From Flavobacteriales bacterium (GTDB lineage: Bacteria > Bacteroidota > Bacteroidia > Flavobacteriales > ECT2AJA-044), in assembly GCA_021296215.1 (NCBI GenBank), contig JAGWBA010000011.1, forward strand, positions 1 through 44,707: 44,707 bases of DNA, read 5' to 3'. The position numbers and the translations under genes are program-made. Shown piece after piece: positions 22,162 through 37,455 of the stretch (its first letter is position 1; every line of letters begins with the position of its first letter). Below the pieces are notes generated by a model that saw nothing but the letters and a program-made list of their open reading frames with translations, was not told the DNA's origin and did no database searches.

Positions 22162-22169
22162 TATTTTTG
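22162..22169 (+). promoter_or_regulatory. -7 promoter box for the M23 peptidase operon
   Basis: TATTTTTG matches TAnnTTTG exactly and lies 78 bases before the ATG at 22247, in the gap divergent from alaS. The long leader has no obvious hairpin. Confidence 0.55.
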
Positions 22170-22246
22170 CAGCGCAATAAGTACTTAAAAGGGTACCGTT
22201 TTTGCCTGGTCAAAAGTGGTCCAAATTTAAGGAATCCGCAATCATT

Positions 22247-23218
22247 ATGGCGAATGTCAGATATTACTACGACAGCGAAACGCTGAGTTACAAAAAGATC
22301 GAGAAGAGCCCGAAGGACACGGTGCGCTCGGTTTTGCTGTTTCTTTCGGCCAGCGCGCTCTTTGCAGTGCTGATGTTGTTCGTATTGTTCACTTTCTTCG
22401 ACTCTCCAAAAGAGAAGCGATTGAAGCGCGAATTGGAGCAAATGACGTTTCAGTATGAGATGTTGAATGACCGCATGGATCAGATTCAGGTGGTCATGAA
22501 CGACATACAGGAGCGCGATGATCATATTTACCGAGTAATTTTCGAGACCGACCCCATTCCCGCGAGTATTCGGAAATCCGGGTTTGGAGGGGTAAACCGC
22601 TACAAGAAATTGGAAGGGTATCAGAATTCCAAGCTCGTTGTGGAGACTACCAAGAAGCTCGATCAGTTGAGCAAACAGGTCGTGATCCAGAGCAAGTCGT
22701 TTGACGAGGTCATCGAAAAAGCGAAGCGCAAAGAAGATATGTTGGCGTCCATTCCGGCGGTTCAGCCCGTGGCGAACAAGGATCTTAAGCGTATGGCCAG
22801 TGGGTACGGTTACCGGATCGACCCGATCTACAAGACCCGAAAGTTCCACGCCGGTATGGACTTTAGTGCGAATACGGGTACACCTATCTACGCTACCGGT
22901 GACGGGGTGGTAACACGAGCCGATCGCCGCAGTAGTGGGTACGGAAATCACGTTCGTATCGATCACGGATATGGTTACCTGACCCTGTACGGTCACATGA
23001 GCAAAATGTTGGTGCGTCCTGGACAAAAAGTAACTCGCGGCGAAATCATAGGTTATGTAGGAAACACCGGAAAGTCGGTCGGACCTCACTTGCACTATGA
23101 GGTGCACAAGAATGGCAAGCCAGTAAATCCGGTGAATTTCTATTTCAACGACCTTACTCCGGAGGAATACGAGATCATGATCGAGTTGTCTCAGCGCCCA
23201 ACGCAGTCACTCGACTGA
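22247..23218 (+). CDS. M23 family metallopeptidase (LytM/peptidoglycan endopeptidase), membrane anchored
   Basis: 323 aa from ATG 22247; earlier in-frame codons are not preceded by a start better than this. One membrane helix near residues 28-48 (SVLLFLSASALFAVLMLFVL), a coiled coil (about 55-100, KRLKRELEQMTFQYEMLNDR) and a C-terminal LytM domain. Zinc ligands are visible in FHAGMDFSANTGTP (H..D) and GPHLHYEVHKNGKPVNP (HxH), with the active-site HVRIDHGYGYLTLYGHMS between them. It should cut peptide cross-links or regulate an amidase at the inner face of the periplasm. First gene of a run with merR, lemA and two TPM genes, an arrangement I recall as common in Flavobacteriia. Confidence 0.93.
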   Translation: MANVRYYYDSETLSYKKIEKSPKDTVRSVLLFLSASALFAVLMLFVLFTFFDSPKEKRLKRELEQMTFQYEMLNDRMDQIQVVMNDIQERDDHIYRVIFETDPIPASIRKSGFGGVNRYKKLEGYQNSKLVVETTKKLDQLSKQVVIQSKSFDEVIEKAKRKEDMLASIPAVQPVANKDLKRMASGYGYRIDPIYKTRKFHAGMDFSANTGTPIYATGDGVVTRADRRSSGYGNHVRIDHGYGYLTLYGHMSKMLVRPGQKVTRGEIIGYVGNTGKSVGPHLHYEVHKNGKPVNPVNFYFNDLTPEEYEIMIELSQRPTQSLD

Positions 23219-23227
23219 TAATTTGCT

Positions 23228-23251
23228 ATCTTCGATTCCCCTATCGAAGAT
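23228..23251 (+). promoter_or_regulatory. Perfect inverted repeat before merR, candidate operator or leader hairpin
   Basis: ATCTTCGAT (23228-23236) and ATCGAAGAT (23243-23251) are perfectly complementary across 6 bases, ending 3 bases before the merR ATG. The left arm overlaps TATCTTCG (23227-23234), a near match to the -7 consensus. The position suits autoregulation by the MerR protein or, as RNA, a hairpin over the ribosome-binding region. There is no T tract, so it is not a typical terminator. Confidence 0.7.
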
Positions 23252-23254
23252 TGA

Positions 23255-23587
23255 ATGTCTGACCCCGCTACATCCAAGAAACTGTATTACTCGATCGGCG
23301 AAGTTGCCAAGATGTTCGATGTAAACACGTCGATGATACGTTATTGGGAGAAAGAGTTCGACATTTTAAAGCCTAAGAAGAACAAAAAGGGCAATCGTTT
23401 ATTTACTACAAAAGACGTTGAAAACCTCAAGGTGATCTACCACCTTTTGAAAGAAAGGGGGTTCACCATTGACGGGGCAAAGAAAAAGCTACGCGAAAAC
23501 AAATCGGACTCGGTGAATACCGCCGACGTAGTTGCGCGTTTGAAGGAGATCAGAAACACATTAATGGAAATCAAAAGACAATTATGA
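23255..23587 (+). CDS. MerR family transcriptional regulator
   Basis: 110 aa. The N-terminal winged helix is complete: LYYSIGEVAKMFDVNTSMIRYWEKEFDIL (helix-turn-helix, RYWEKE signature) followed by PKKNKKGNRLFTTKDVENLKVIYHLLKERGFTIDGAKKKL. Beyond residue 75 only a short dimerisation helix remains and there is no effector-binding domain and no cysteine metal site. It is therefore a minimal MerR protein of the kind found in this Bacteroidota neighbourhood. The perfect inverted repeat just upstream is a plausible binding site. Its stop overlaps the lemA start (ATGA), so regulator and target genes are translationally coupled. Confidence 0.92.
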   Translation: MSDPATSKKLYYSIGEVAKMFDVNTSMIRYWEKEFDILKPKKNKKGNRLFTTKDVENLKVIYHLLKERGFTIDGAKKKLRENKSDSVNTADVVARLKEIRNTLMEIKRQL

Positions 23588-24165
23588 AAAGGGGAACACT
23601 CATTCTCTTAGTGGTCGTTGGAGCTATTTTGCTCATCGGCTTTAGTATGTTCAATATCGCGACAGGCACGTACGACAAGGCCGTGGGGTATCAAGAATAT
23701 GTTGATCAAGCTTGGGGCGATGTGCAAAGCAGCTATCAGAGACGTGCCGACTTGATCCCTAATTTAGTGGCAACCGTTCAGGGAGCTGCCGAGAACGAAA
23801 AAGAGATCTTAGTGCAGGTGACGCAGGCTCGCGCAGGCATTACGGAAGCCACCACTCCTGAGGAAATGGAACTCATGGGTCGAAAGATCAACACGGCCAT
23901 CAATCTGGCCTTTGAGCGATACCCGGAAATCCGAAGTACTCAAAACTTTGCCGAGCTCCAGTCACAATTGGAAGGGACCGAAAATCGCATCAATGTAGCC
24001 AGGAGTCGGTATAATGAAGCCGTGGCGCGCTATAATACTTTTATTCGCGGATTTTGGAAGCGCCTGTACCTAGGTTGGTTGGGAGCCCCCGATGAATTCC
24101 CACGGAAAGACTCGTTCAGTGCGAAGGCAGGAAGCGAAGACGCGCCGGAAGTGAGTTTTGAGTAA
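23584..24165 (+). CDS. LemA family protein
   Basis: 193 aa. A single N-terminal membrane helix (LILLVVVGAILLIGFSMFNI, residues 5-24) is followed by the extracytoplasmic helical LemA domain: YDKAVGYQEYVDQAWGDVQSSYQRRADLIPNLVATVQG, then ENRINVARSRYNEAVARYNTFI. The R-R-x-D-LIPNLV element is the family hallmark. Biochemical function is not settled; LemA proteins co-occur with TPM-domain proteins, as here. It overlaps merR by 4 bases upstream and the first TPM gene by 1 base downstream. The hydrophilic C-terminal tail (KDSFSAKAGSEDAPEVSFE) is of the usual variable type. Confidence 0.95.
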   Translation: MKRGTLILLVVVGAILLIGFSMFNIATGTYDKAVGYQEYVDQAWGDVQSSYQRRADLIPNLVATVQGAAENEKEILVQVTQARAGITEATTPEEMELMGRKINTAINLAFERYPEIRSTQNFAELQSQLEGTENRINVARSRYNEAVARYNTFIRGFWKRLYLGWLGAPDEFPRKDSFSAKAGSEDAPEVSFE

Positions 24166-24605
24166 TGGCGAAACCTGTCGATCAATTCTTAACCACCGAC
24201 GAACAAGAGCAGGTCATTGCGGCTATAAAGCAAGCAGAGCTCAAGACTTCGGGTGAAATCCGCGTACATATCGAACGACATCACGAAGATGAGCCCTATG
24301 CACGGGCGACCGAAATCTTTGGAAAACTGGGTATGCACGAAACCGCCCAACGCAATGGGGTGTTGATCTATGTTGCCACAGACGACCATCGCTTTGCCAT
24401 CATTGGCGATGAGGGAATTGATGCGGTAACCCCTGATGATTTCTGGGAGTCGACGAAGGACGCCATGCAAACCCTCTTCAGAGTGGGGCGATTTGCGGAC
24501 GGATTAGTAGCCGGGATCATGAGTGTTGGAACCGAGCTCCTGCACCATTTCCCGTACCAAGACGACGACGAAAACGAATTGCCGGACGAAATCTCAACGT
24601 CGTGA
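24165..24605 (+). CDS. TPM-domain protein, short form without signal peptide
   Basis: 146 aa. The TPM domain core is visible: LTTDEQEQVIAAIKQAELKTSGEIRVHIE, then KLGMHETAQRNGVLIYVATDDHRFAIIGDEGIDAVTP and AGIMSVGTELLHHFP. No signal peptide and no confident membrane helix are seen, so it is probably cytoplasmic or peripheral, unlike its neighbour. TPM domains have been linked to acid phosphatase activity and, in plants, photosystem II repair; the role in Bacteroidota is not known to me. It starts within the lemA stop codon (TAATG) and its own stop overlaps the next ATG (TGATG), so the three are tightly coupled. Confidence 0.88.
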   Translation: MAKPVDQFLTTDEQEQVIAAIKQAELKTSGEIRVHIERHHEDEPYARATEIFGKLGMHETAQRNGVLIYVATDDHRFAIIGDEGIDAVTPDDFWESTKDAMQTLFRVGRFADGLVAGIMSVGTELLHHFPYQDDDENELPDEISTS

Positions 24606-25399
24606 TGAAAGCCAAGCATCTCATTCTTTTATTGGCCGTCTCAGTAACGCATCCGGCCGTAGGCCAAGATTTTCCACAACCGAAAAAAGGGCGAATTGTA
24701 CATGATTTTGCCGAGCTTCTCAACGAGCGCGAAGAGCAGGCCTTGGAGCGCAAGTTGGTGGCGATGAACGACACCACGAGCGTTCAGATCGCGGTCATTA
24801 CCATTGGTAGCCTTGGTGGATATGACGTGGCCGAATACAATATCAAGCCGAGTCACCTTTGGGGCATTGGTCAAGCGAAGGAAGACAATGGTATTTCCAT
24901 TCTCATAGCGAGGGACGATCGCCGTGTGAATATCTCGACCGGATATGGCGTTGAGGAATTCGTTACCGACGCATTAAGTCGTCGGATCATCGATCAATAC
25001 ATGGTGCCGGAGTTTCGCAATGGCCACTATTACGCCGGGCTGGACGCAGGTACCGATGTGCTCATCGGATTGGTGAACGGTCAATTCGATGCTTCACAAC
25101 TGGAAAAGCCGAAAGGCGAGCAAAAGGTTCCGGCAGGAGTCATATTCGTGATCGTATTGATCATCGTATTCGTTTTCGTGATGGCCTCGCGCGGTGGAAG
25201 AGGTGGCGGACGCGGAGGTGGCCGTAGAAGATCGGTCGCAACGGATGCCCTGTTAACGGCGTTTTTACTAAGTCACTCGGGTCGCTCCAGCTGGGGCGGC
25301 GGAGGCGGCTTTGGCGGTGGAGGCGGTTTCGGAGGAGGAGGTTTCGGCGGCTTTGGTGGCGGTGGATTTGGCGGCGGCGGAGCCAGCGGATCATGGTAA
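24605..25399 (+). CDS. TPM-domain membrane protein with glycine-rich tail (YgcG-like)
   Basis: 264 aa from ATG 24605. Signal peptide (residues 1-21, ending HPAVGQ), TPM domain (about 25-150: VHDFAELLNEREEQALERKL, VQIAVITIGSLGGYDVAEYN, GISILIARDDRRVNISTGYG), a membrane helix (about 180-197, VIFVIVLIIVFVFVMA) and a basic then extremely glycine-rich C-terminus (GGRGGGRGGGRRR, later GGGGGFGGGGGFGGGGF) ending SGSW. The order matches YgcG/DUF2207-associated proteins, with the TPM domain in the periplasm and the flexible tail in the cytoplasm. The stop codon sits inside a strong hairpin that probably ends the five-gene transcript. Confidence 0.9.
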   Translation: MKAKHLILLLAVSVTHPAVGQDFPQPKKGRIVHDFAELLNEREEQALERKLVAMNDTTSVQIAVITIGSLGGYDVAEYNIKPSHLWGIGQAKEDNGISILIARDDRRVNISTGYGVEEFVTDALSRRIIDQYMVPEFRNGHYYAGLDAGTDVLIGLVNGQFDASQLEKPKGEQKVPAGVIFVIVLIIVFVFVMASRGGRGGGRGGGRRRSVATDALLTAFLLSHSGRSSWGGGGGFGGGGGFGGGGFGGFGGGGFGGGGASGSW

Positions 25400-25419
25400 A
25401 AGTGCAACGCACTTTTACC
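25395..25419 (+). terminator. Perfect 11-bp hairpin at end of the TPM operon
   Basis: GGTAAAAGTGC (25395-25405) and GCACTTTTACC (25409-25419) pair perfectly across a 3-base loop. The stem includes the stop codon of the upstream gene. The T run is inside the right arm rather than after it, so termination efficiency is uncertain; it may act on both strands. The gap up to 25519 holds repeated TTAGTTCTT-like AT-rich sequence and no gene. Confidence 0.65.
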
Positions 25420-34350: not shown

Positions 34351-35367
34351 ATGCTCGTTCAACGCAGCATTGATTTTAGAAACCTGGTCTGGTATACGAG
34401 GGGAGGTATTCTATTCATGGCGATCTATTCGGCCGCTGTGGTTATCGTATATGGCATTTTCGGCCTTAAGTTCGTCAGCATACCGTGGGCTGTAATTCCG
34501 GTCGTGGGTGTAGCTGTTTCATTTTACCTGGGTTTTAAGAACAATTCGGCCTACGACCGAACCTGGGAGGCTCGAAAGATTTGGGGAGGCATTGTGAACT
34601 CGAGCAGAACCTGGGGGATCATGGCACGTGATTTCGTGCAGGATATGGACGGAATCGCGGGGTGGAGCGAAGAGCAGCTTAAAAAGATGCACCGCAAGTT
34701 GATCTATCGCCAAATTGCGTGGCTATATAAGCATCGTAGGCAACTTCTCGAACATAGAACTTGGGAGCATTACGAGCCCCACAACGAGCCCTATCGATTG
34801 AGTTTGGCGAAGAACTTTTTTAATCTCTCACGGGAAGAGGAGATTCAGTCATTCTTGGATCCAGAGGAACTCAAGTCGATCATGAATGCCAAGAATCCGG
34901 CCACTCAGTTGATCGCGAATCAAAGTGCTGACATTACGCAACTTCGCAAAGATGGGGTGATCACCGATTACCAGTATGTGAAACTCGCTGGACTGCTCGA
35001 GGAGTTTTACACGCTACAAGGTAAAAATGAGCGCATTAAAAACTTTCCCTTACCGCGACAGTACGCCACTTCCTCAATGTTATTCACCATTTTATTCATT
35101 TTTCTGCTTCCGTTAGGTCTCGTAGAAGCTTTTGATAAAATGGGCACTTGGATGGTATGGATGACCATTCCCTTCACCGTGATCGTAGGTTGGGTATTCC
35201 TGATCATGGAGATCGTAGGCGATTATGCTGAGAACCCGTTTGAAGGTTTGGCCTTCGATATTCCCATGACGAGCTTGTGTCGAACCATTGAGATCGACCT
35301 GCGGGAGATGTTGGGTGAAACCGATTTGCCCGAGCCTATTAAGCCGGTGGGCAACGTTCTGCTTTAA
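34351..35367 (+). CDS. Bestrophin family ion channel
   Basis: 338 aa. Family features: an N-terminal amphipathic start then two membrane helices (GGILFMAIYSAAVVIVYGIF and IPWAVIPVVGVAVSFYLGF), the conserved KNNSAYDRTWEARKIWGGIVNSSRTWG signature, and a second hydrophobic pair (SSMLFTILFIFLLPLGLVEAF, WMVWMTIPFTVIVGWVFLIMEIVG) followed by YAENPFEGLAFDIPMTSLCRTIEIDLREMLGE. Bacterial bestrophins form pentameric channels in the cytoplasmic membrane; ion selectivity (anion or cation) varies and cannot be read here. The stop codon shares the palindrome TTAA with the stop of the convergent rfbB gene. Confidence 0.94.
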   Translation: MLVQRSIDFRNLVWYTRGGILFMAIYSAAVVIVYGIFGLKFVSIPWAVIPVVGVAVSFYLGFKNNSAYDRTWEARKIWGGIVNSSRTWGIMARDFVQDMDGIAGWSEEQLKKMHRKLIYRQIAWLYKHRRQLLEHRTWEHYEPHNEPYRLSLAKNFFNLSREEEIQSFLDPEELKSIMNAKNPATQLIANQSADITQLRKDGVITDYQYVKLAGLLEEFYTLQGKNERIKNFPLPRQYATSSMLFTILFIFLLPLGLVEAFDKMGTWMVWMTIPFTVIVGWVFLIMEIVGDYAENPFEGLAFDIPMTSLCRTIEIDLREMLGETDLPEPIKPVGNVLL

Positions 35368-36428
35368 CGCTCTGCGTACATCTCTTTGTAGTAGTCTTGG
35401 TACGCGCCTGAAGTAACTCGGTTCATCCATTCTTCATTAGCCAAGTACCAGTCAATGGTTTCAGACAACCCCTCTTCAAAAGTTACTGAAGGTTCCCATC
35501 CAAGTTCGTTCTTGATCTTGTTGGCATTGATGGCGTATCGACGGTCGTGCCCGGGACGATCCGTCACATAGGTGATCAATGCTTCAGAAGTGCCCGGCTC
35601 GCGACCGAGTTTTCGATCCATCTGTTCTATGAGCGCTATAATGAGGTCGATGTTCTGCCATTCGTTGAATCCTCCGATGTTATATGTTTCAGCATTAACA
35701 CCTTCGTGATAAACGAGGTCGATCGCTCGCGCGTGGTCGATCACATACAGCCAGTCCCGAGTGTATTTTCCATCGCCGTATACCGGCAAAGGTTTATTGT
35801 TCTTGATGTTGTTGATGAATAAAGGGATCAATTTCTCCGGAAATTGATTAGGCCCGTAATTGTTAGAGCAGTTCGTTATCACATAGGGCAAACCATAAGT
35901 TTCACCGTAAGCGCGCACGAAATGATCACCACTGGCTTTACTGGCCGAATAAGGAGAATTTGGATCATATGGAGTAGTTTCCAAGAACAGTCCGGAGTCA
36001 CCCAAAGTTCCGTACACCTCATCTGTTGAAATATGATAGAACCGTTTTCCTGTATAGTCTCCTTTCCAGGCATCAACCGCCTCATTCAAGAGGTTTACGG
36101 TTCCAATAACATTCGTGCGAACGAAAGCCAATGGATCGCTGATACTTCTATCAACATGACTCTCGGCAGCCAAGTGAATTACACCGTCGAAGTCATAGCG
36201 GCCGAAAAGATCTTTCAGTGCCGCTACATCGTTTATGTCGATCCTCTCAAACTTGTAGTTCGTCGCCCCGTATACATCGCTCAGGTTTTCTAGGTTGCCC
36301 GCATAGGTCAAAGCATCGAGATTGACGATCAAGGTATCCGGATATCTATTCACCAGCACACGTACAACATGCGAACCAATGAATCCGGCTCCACCCGTTA
36401 CCAGTAGTGTTCGTTTGAATTCAGACAT
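35364..36428 (-). CDS. rfbB: dTDP-glucose 4,6-dehydratase
   Basis: Makes dTDP-4-keto-6-deoxyglucose, the branch point to rhamnose and other deoxysugars. 354 aa from ATG 36428. Extended SDR features: LLVTGGAGFIGSHVVRVLV, DALTYAGNLENL, VIHLAAESHVDRSI, FYHISTDEVYGTLGD (catalytic Asp-Glu pair in TDEVYG), YSASKASGDHFVRAYG and GDGKYTRDWLYVIDHARA. The longer frame to 36614 is rejected because it overlaps galE. The partners rfbA, rfbC and rfbD are not in the window, so the end product is unclear. Last gene of the sugar-nucleotide operon; 1 base after galE. Confidence 0.95.
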   Translation of the reverse strand: MSEFKRTLLVTGGAGFIGSHVVRVLVNRYPDTLIVNLDALTYAGNLENLSDVYGATNYKFERIDINDVAALKDLFGRYDFDGVIHLAAESHVDRSISDPLAFVRTNVIGTVNLLNEAVDAWKGDYTGKRFYHISTDEVYGTLGDSGLFLETTPYDPNSPYSASKASGDHFVRAYGETYGLPYVITNCSNNYGPNQFPEKLIPLFINNIKNNKPLPVYGDGKYTRDWLYVIDHARAIDLVYHEGVNAETYNIGGFNEWQNIDLIIALIEQMDRKLGREPGTSEALITYVTDRPGHDRRYAINANKIKNELGWEPSVTFEEGLSETIDWYLANEEWMNRVTSGAYQDYYKEMYAER

Positions 36429-36429
36429 T

Positions 36430-37455
36430 TTATTCTTGTTTTTTAAGTGCTTCTTCAAAGTTCCATGCGGAAGAGAGCATTTCTTCCAATGAACGCTTGG
36501 GCTCCCAACCGAGTATGTTGCGGGCTTTAGAGATATCAGCATAAACGGCCTCAACATCTCCAGGTCTTCTATCCACCAATTCATATTCAATGGAGATTCC
36601 GGTGGACGACTCAAATACGTTGATCATCTCGAGCACCGTGAATCCGTCTCCTGAACCGAGGTTAAATACCTCAAAATCTCCTTCACTCCTGCCGTCGATC
36701 AATCTCTGTACGGCGAGTATATGAGCATCGGCAATATCAACCACGTGAATATAATCCCGAACACAAGATCCGTCGCGAGTATTATAGTCGCCCCCGAATA
36801 CTCGAAGTTTCGCCCGTTTTCCGACAGCCGTTTCCGTGATGTATGGTACCAAATGGTGAGGTTCACCATCTTGGAATTCCCCAATGATCGATGATTCATG
36901 AGCACCGATCGGATTAAAATACCTGAGGGATATGACGTTCACTCCACTAACCTTGCTGAAGTCCTTCAGAATATCTTCACCTATCTTCTTCGTATTTCCG
37001 TAAGGCGATTCCGCTTCTTTTACCGGGGCATTCTCGCCAACCGGCAAAACATCCGGATTTCCATATACGGTGCAACTAGAGCTAAACACGATTGGAGCAA
37101 CCGAGTATTTTTCCATGCATTTCAGCAAATTCATGGTGGATATCAGGTTGTTCTCGTAATACTTGAGTGGATCATCCACCGATTCGTTCACCAGCAAGAA
37201 AGCGGCAAAATGAATTACTCCGGAGATGTCCGGATTTCTCTGAAAAACGCCATCCAACTCCTGTAGGTTGCACATCTCGATCGGCTCAAAGAGCAACTCT
37301 CGGCCGGTGATCTTTTCGATACGTCCTTTGACTTCGTAGTCGGATTCACTCAAGTTGTCGATGACCAAAGGCTCATACCCCTTTTCTATCAGCGACACAC
37401 ATGTATGAGCCCCAATGTATCCGAGTCCGCCCGTAACCAAGATCTTTGCTCCCAT
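36430..37455 (-). CDS. galE: UDP-glucose 4-epimerase
   Basis: Interconverts UDP-glucose and UDP-galactose. 341 aa: KILVTGGLGYIGAHTCVSL (GxxGxxG), VIDNLSESDYEV, VIHFAAFLLVNESVDDPLKYYENN, IVFSSSCTVYGNPD, ESPYGNTKKIGEDIL (catalytic Tyr-Lys, YxxxK), SLRYFNPIGAHESSIIGE and CVRDYIHVVDIADAH. The usual AxKAVGES stretch is replaced by AAFLLVNES, but the catalytic residues are kept. The start is 3 bases from the uxs stop and the stop is 1 base from the rfbB start, so transcription is shared. Other activities of the family (GlcNAc or GlcA epimerase) cannot be excluded. Confidence 0.92.
   Translation of the reverse strand: MGAKILVTGGLGYIGAHTCVSLIEKGYEPLVIDNLSESDYEVKGRIEKITGRELLFEPIEMCNLQELDGVFQRNPDISGVIHFAAFLLVNESVDDPLKYYENNLISTMNLLKCMEKYSVAPIVFSSSCTVYGNPDVLPVGENAPVKEAESPYGNTKKIGEDILKDFSKVSGVNVISLRYFNPIGAHESSIIGEFQDGEPHHLVPYITETAVGKRAKLRVFGGDYNTRDGSCVRDYIHVVDIADAHILAVQRLIDGRSEGDFEVFNLGSGDGFTVLEMINVFESSTGISIEYELVDRRPGDVEAVYADISKARNILGWEPKRSLEEMLSSAWNFEEALKKQE

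Follow-up and report, generated by a model that had tools for sequence, protein, structure and literature searches.

Does the inverted repeat that lies directly in front of a small merR gene of a Flavobacteriales bacterium give the operon around it an internal, autoregulatory switch? The window analyzed here is a stretch of 44,707 nt (contig JAGWBA010000011.1), in which the anticipated gene order, M23 peptidase-merR-lemA-TPM-TPM, was recovered, with alaS divergently oriented upstream. The elements relevant to the argument are as follows (G001 is the sister species discussed below).

22162..22169, plus strand: -7 box of the predicted M23 promoter, TATTTTTG, conserved in G001
22247..23218, plus strand: M23 peptidase gene, ATG at 22247
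23219..23254, plus strand: 36-nt spacer between the peptidase gene and merR, containing the dyad and found in this genus only; conserved blocks at 23222-23234 and 23240-23250
23227..23234, plus strand: -7 box variant TATCTTCG (TANNTTYG) of the predicted merR promoter, with the same sequence and distance in G001
23228..23251, no strand: inverted repeat, the proposed operator; the core common to the sister species is 23229-23250, TCTTCG-N10-CGAAGA
23239 (within a few bases), plus strand: predicted transcription start, from the placement of the box at -12 to -5 (PMC9723704)
23255..23587, plus strand: merR, encoding a 110-aa MerR protein with a helix-turn-helix (HTH) domain and a predicted dimer helix but no sensor domain
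23584..24165, plus strand: lemA, overlapping the merR stop codon
24165..24605, plus strand: first TPM-domain gene
24605..25399, plus strand: second TPM-domain gene, with a Gly-rich tail
25395..25419, plus strand: terminator-like hairpin (11 bp) at the operon end

Upstream of the peptidase gene, the divergent -7 boxes for alaS (TAAATTTG, 22222-22229, minus strand) and for M23 are both well conserved; the approximately 40 nt that precede the M23 start codon are shared without change by G001, which exceeds what a promoter box alone would need. At the other end of this gene (23201-23218), the peptidase of the window and its relatives share, across families, a conserved (N/T)QS(F/L)D as their final residues. 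We found no paper on a merR-lemA-TPM operon of Bacteroidota. In several Bacteroidales loci (L072, L075, L090, L101, L115, and L122), lemA-TPM-TPM adjoins merR on the opposite strand, so that merR and lemA-TPM stay associated even where they do not form an operon.

A MerR protein without a sensor domain

The MerR protein had been described as a DNA-binding half only, and this description is accurate: an N-terminal MerR-type winged HTH (Pfam MerR_1, E 1.7e-23) is its sole domain. The AlphaFold single-chain model (mean pLDDT 85) consists of the HTH, the wing, and one long C-terminal helix (residues 72-109), with a pLDDT below that of the HTH, after which the chain ends with no C-terminal ligand-binding domain. 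The nearest folds are those of DNA-bound RacA, CarH, GlnR, and the sensor-less HiNmlR; indeed, the ligand-binding domain is also missing from some accepted members of the MerR family, such as HiNmlR. The latter (PDB 5d8c, 5d90, and 5e01; bound to promoter DNA) similarly combines an HTH with a long helix and has no effector domain, although the two proteins are only ~22% identical in the structural alignment and are likened by architecture alone.

Nearly every sampled genome of Flavobacteriales and other Bacteroidia encodes this MerR once, in most cases next to an M23 peptidase; the genomes that lack it are mainly highly reduced ones (~0.3-0.6 Mb). Across Bacteroidia, there is hardly any variation in its recognition helix and wing. 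A search of viral contigs yielded no relative of this protein, and the literature searched yielded no target for it. What a single-copy, near-universal MerR of Bacteroidia regulates is a more general question than the dyad itself.

Conservation of the dyad in the sister species

The repeat is located where it had been reported, at 23228-23251, and has the reported form, ATCTTCGAT-TCCCCT-ATCGAAGAT, that is, perfect 9-bp arms around a 6-nt loop, ending 3 nt before the merR ATG (23255). Its 9-bp length alone is unremarkable and proves nothing: the window contains four perfect repeats with arms of at least 9 bp and loops of 3-10 nt, compared to 1.65 in shuffled sequences. The exact dyad pattern with up to three mismatches is expected only 0.06 times per window, in a test that is built on the found sequence itself. 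The credibility of the dyad rests on its conservation in G001, the sole other genome of the genus and family in our comparison with the genome of the window (G000), rather than on its length.

In G001, the gene order and the 36-nt length of the spacer are the same. The two spacers are identical in 25 of the 36 positions, with two blocks fully intact, TTTGCTATCTTCG (13/13) and CCTATCGAAGA (11/11), and with all five bases between these blocks changed. Across alaS, M23, merR, lemA, and both TPM genes, only 222 of the 688 fourfold-degenerate sites are identical (32%), and neutral sites are thus near saturation. Against this rate, the identity of the spacer has a binomial P of ~5e-6, and the pattern of two intact runs did not appear in any of 400,000 simulations; when the columns of the spacer alignment were shuffled, an equal dyad arose in 33 of 50,000 permutations. 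Over the 32 kb that could be aligned to G001, just two dyads with arms of at least 6 bp are common to both genomes, namely, TCTTCG-N10-CGAAGA at merR and one at 35829-35846 within an open reading frame (35364-36614, minus strand). The latter shows a paired change in G001, CAATTTC..GAAATTG to CAGTTTC..GAAACTG. G001 contains a single perfect copy of the merR core, at merR; G000 contains two, one at merR and one in an apparently coding stretch.

On this comparison, the merR dyad is a real, selected element, and its arms, unchanged around an altered center, fit base-specific recognition. A chance palindrome or a dispersed repeat is a very improbable explanation: some 1.7 inverted repeats of 9 bp are expected per window, but the core is kept in both species of the genus and the full palindrome is unique in the genome. 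The sole evidently non-coding copy of the core in either genome is the one at merR, as a local switch would predict.

Several other assignments of this sequence were considered and rejected. A dispersed repeat or regulon site is at odds with the lack of a second perfect copy of the palindrome in the genome, where near copies resemble chance matches. The dyad is not an intrinsic terminator: it is followed by TGAATGTC rather than a T run and is absent from the output of the terminator scan. Finally, the merR coding sequence does not extend upstream, given the in-frame stop codon immediately 5' of the ATG in the window.

A predicted merR promoter and its possible repressor

The overlap with a -7-like box, also part of the original prediction, holds as well: TATCTTCG at 23227-23234 differs by one base from the Bacteroidota -7 box TANNTTTG, the consensus of the primary sigma factor of the phylum, which occupies -12 to -5 (PMC9723704). 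Upstream of M23, in 94 loci, TANNTTTG is found 69 times (15.8 expected) and TANNTTCG 9 times (1.8 expected); TANNTTAG and TANNTTGG show no clear enrichment in these loci. The enrichment of TANNTTCG makes the TTCG form a credible -7 box, and both species have TANNTTCG 28 nt upstream of merR. Given the placement of the box, transcription would start near 23239, on the center of the dyad (23239.5), with a leader of ~16 nt. No -33 TTTG was detected ~19-21 bp upstream of the box in either species; in Flavobacterium johnsoniae, a -33 motif was not identified either (PMC7366714).

Conservation of the promoter by itself, with TATCTTCG as the -7 box and the right arm kept for some other purpose, for example, as start-site or leader sequence, would agree with the match of the left block to the variant consensus and with the lack of any known site for this MerR. 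It does not readily account for the 11 contiguous right-hand bases that are intact, nor for a jointly kept dyad of a length so rarely reproduced by column shuffling, and we regard it as improbable.

We favor, with a probability of roughly 0.48, a reading in which merR has an internal promoter of its own, overlapped by a repressor operator that is most likely bound by MerR. Under this model, the genus-specific spacer would carry the merR promoter, with the -7 box TATCTTCG and a start near 23239; the dyad would be the operator, with a core that spans the -7 box and the start of the transcript; binding of a dimeric repressor to it would keep RNA polymerase from acting there; and, with MerR itself as this repressor, negative feedback would be exerted on merR-lemA-TPM-TPM, apart from readthrough from the M23 promoter. 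An internal promoter at this position would act on merR and the downstream genes, not on the peptidase gene. Overlapping the predicted promoter of its own gene and conserved in the two species of the genus, the dyad has the position and conservation expected of a putative autoregulatory repressor operator. The choice of MerR as the presumed binder comes from proximity and protein architecture only, and the confinement of the dyad to two species counts against the model as a whole, as does the lack of a visible -33 box.

Characterized members of the family offer both parallels and contrasts. HspR is an autoregulatory MerR-type repressor that recognizes the HAIR element, CTTGAGT-N7-ACTCAAG (PMC6102357), and thus is a case of a MerR family repressor that controls its own operon through an inverted repeat within the promoter, whereas binding in our case is only presumed; furthermore, the Helicobacter pylori operators span ~70 bp at several heat-shock promoters, whereas the merR dyad is single and short and has a different half-site. 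The classical MerR operators (CueR, BmrR, and CadR) are dyads read by a winged-HTH dimer as well, but they are located inside a long, 19-20 bp spacer between the -35 and -10 elements and activate by distortion (PMC9909328), whereas the merR dyad is centered near +1, a difference that counts against the model. By analogy, its geometry would be that of a repressor site, like HspR, and not that of a classical MerR activator site. CvkR, a short repressor of the MerR type, likewise has an inverted-repeat motif, but it represses neighboring genes and differs in both motif and dimer mode; no binding of CvkR to its own core promoter is seen (PMC9938897), which counts against autoregulation by MerR.

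The main rival explanation places the function of the dyad in RNA: in transcripts that read through from the M23 promoter, the arms would pair into a hairpin next to the merR AUG, lower merR translation, and replace the stop-start overlap that is found in relatives. Folds are predicted in both species (approximately -10.3 and -12.0 kcal/mol, z of about -3.0 and -2.7), the pairing in G001 extends to TGCT/AGCA and includes the A of the AUG, and structure near the start codon is known to tune translation in F. johnsoniae (PMC6847099). Yet the six core pairs have the same sequence in both species despite saturated divergence, with no compensatory change among them; most of the conserved TTTGC is unpaired in the species of the window; and the left arm doubles as a good -7 box, so that transcripts begun there would lack this arm. 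The lack of compensatory changes in the arms, together with the unpaired conserved flanks, favors recognition of DNA, a choice that two species cannot settle, and we consider the RNA explanation unlikely, if less so than any of the other alternatives. A dual role, with a DNA operator over the merR promoter and RNA arms that hide the merR start in readthrough transcripts, such that peptidase-linked and independent expression are kept apart, is more doubtful still, and slightly more so than conservation of the promoter by itself.

Distribution of the dyad beyond the genus

In Flavobacteriales, merR is almost always located downstream of M23, usually with a start codon that overlaps the peptidase stop codon (TAATG); among the loci with M23 within 200 nt, the gap is below 12 nt in 66 of 90. 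Eight other genomes with the full five-gene order (L008/L050, L027, L030, L031, L038/L056, L042, L053, and L057) have a gap of -1, the merR ATG overlapping the peptidase stop codon, which leaves no room for the palindrome; in the ninth, L033, the gap is 95 nt and the dyad is absent. In the tree of M23 plus MerR, the genus of the window is placed among families with overlapping starts, although the deeper fork is weakly supported. From this position, the spacer was most simply gained in the genus, and the 36-nt spacer is probably derived.

No dyad conserved clearly beyond chance was found near the merR or M23 starts in other families, and the core upstream of merR (120) and M23 (98) at other loci was no commoner than, or barely above, shuffled sequences. 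In a scan of 296 genomes of the order, ATCTTCG-N10-CGAAGAT was detected in six, and its location at merR is known for the genome of the window alone. Alignment of the merR upstream regions across Flavobacteriales thus yields a divided answer, with the dyad kept in the sister species and absent outside the genus. The palindrome does not belong to the five-gene module as such, the order of which is conserved without it in nine genomes outside the genus, and the proposal for the whole module is thereby refuted on the condition originally set for it; of the internal switch originally proposed for this module, a plausible local switch within the genus survives. We conclude that the dyad is a genus-specific addition, a control element of an ordinary kind.

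This distribution bears on the identity of the binding protein. The DNA-reading residues of MerR are conserved where the dyad is absent, as would be expected if MerR acts elsewhere and the dyad is the operator of a different dimeric regulator encoded elsewhere in the genome; such a regulator should have further sites, but neither genome contains a second evidently non-coding perfect core, and we consider this explanation improbable, nearly on a par with conservation of the promoter by itself. Under the favored reading, with MerR as the binder, the near invariance of these residues and the lack of enrichment of the dyad elsewhere imply that the site arose only here, which counts against MerR as the binder. 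If correct, this reading provides a first candidate site of binding for a MerR that nearly all sampled Bacteroidia encode once, beside M23 and often LemA-TPM genes, and its half-site could seed a search for the actual regulon of this protein. It would also show a translationally coupled gene pair gaining an independent promoter-operator. Elsewhere in Bacteroidota, a 9-bp dyad of unrelated sequence, TGATTAATT-tgtg-AATTAATCA, precedes merR at locus L105 and was not seen in its neighbors.
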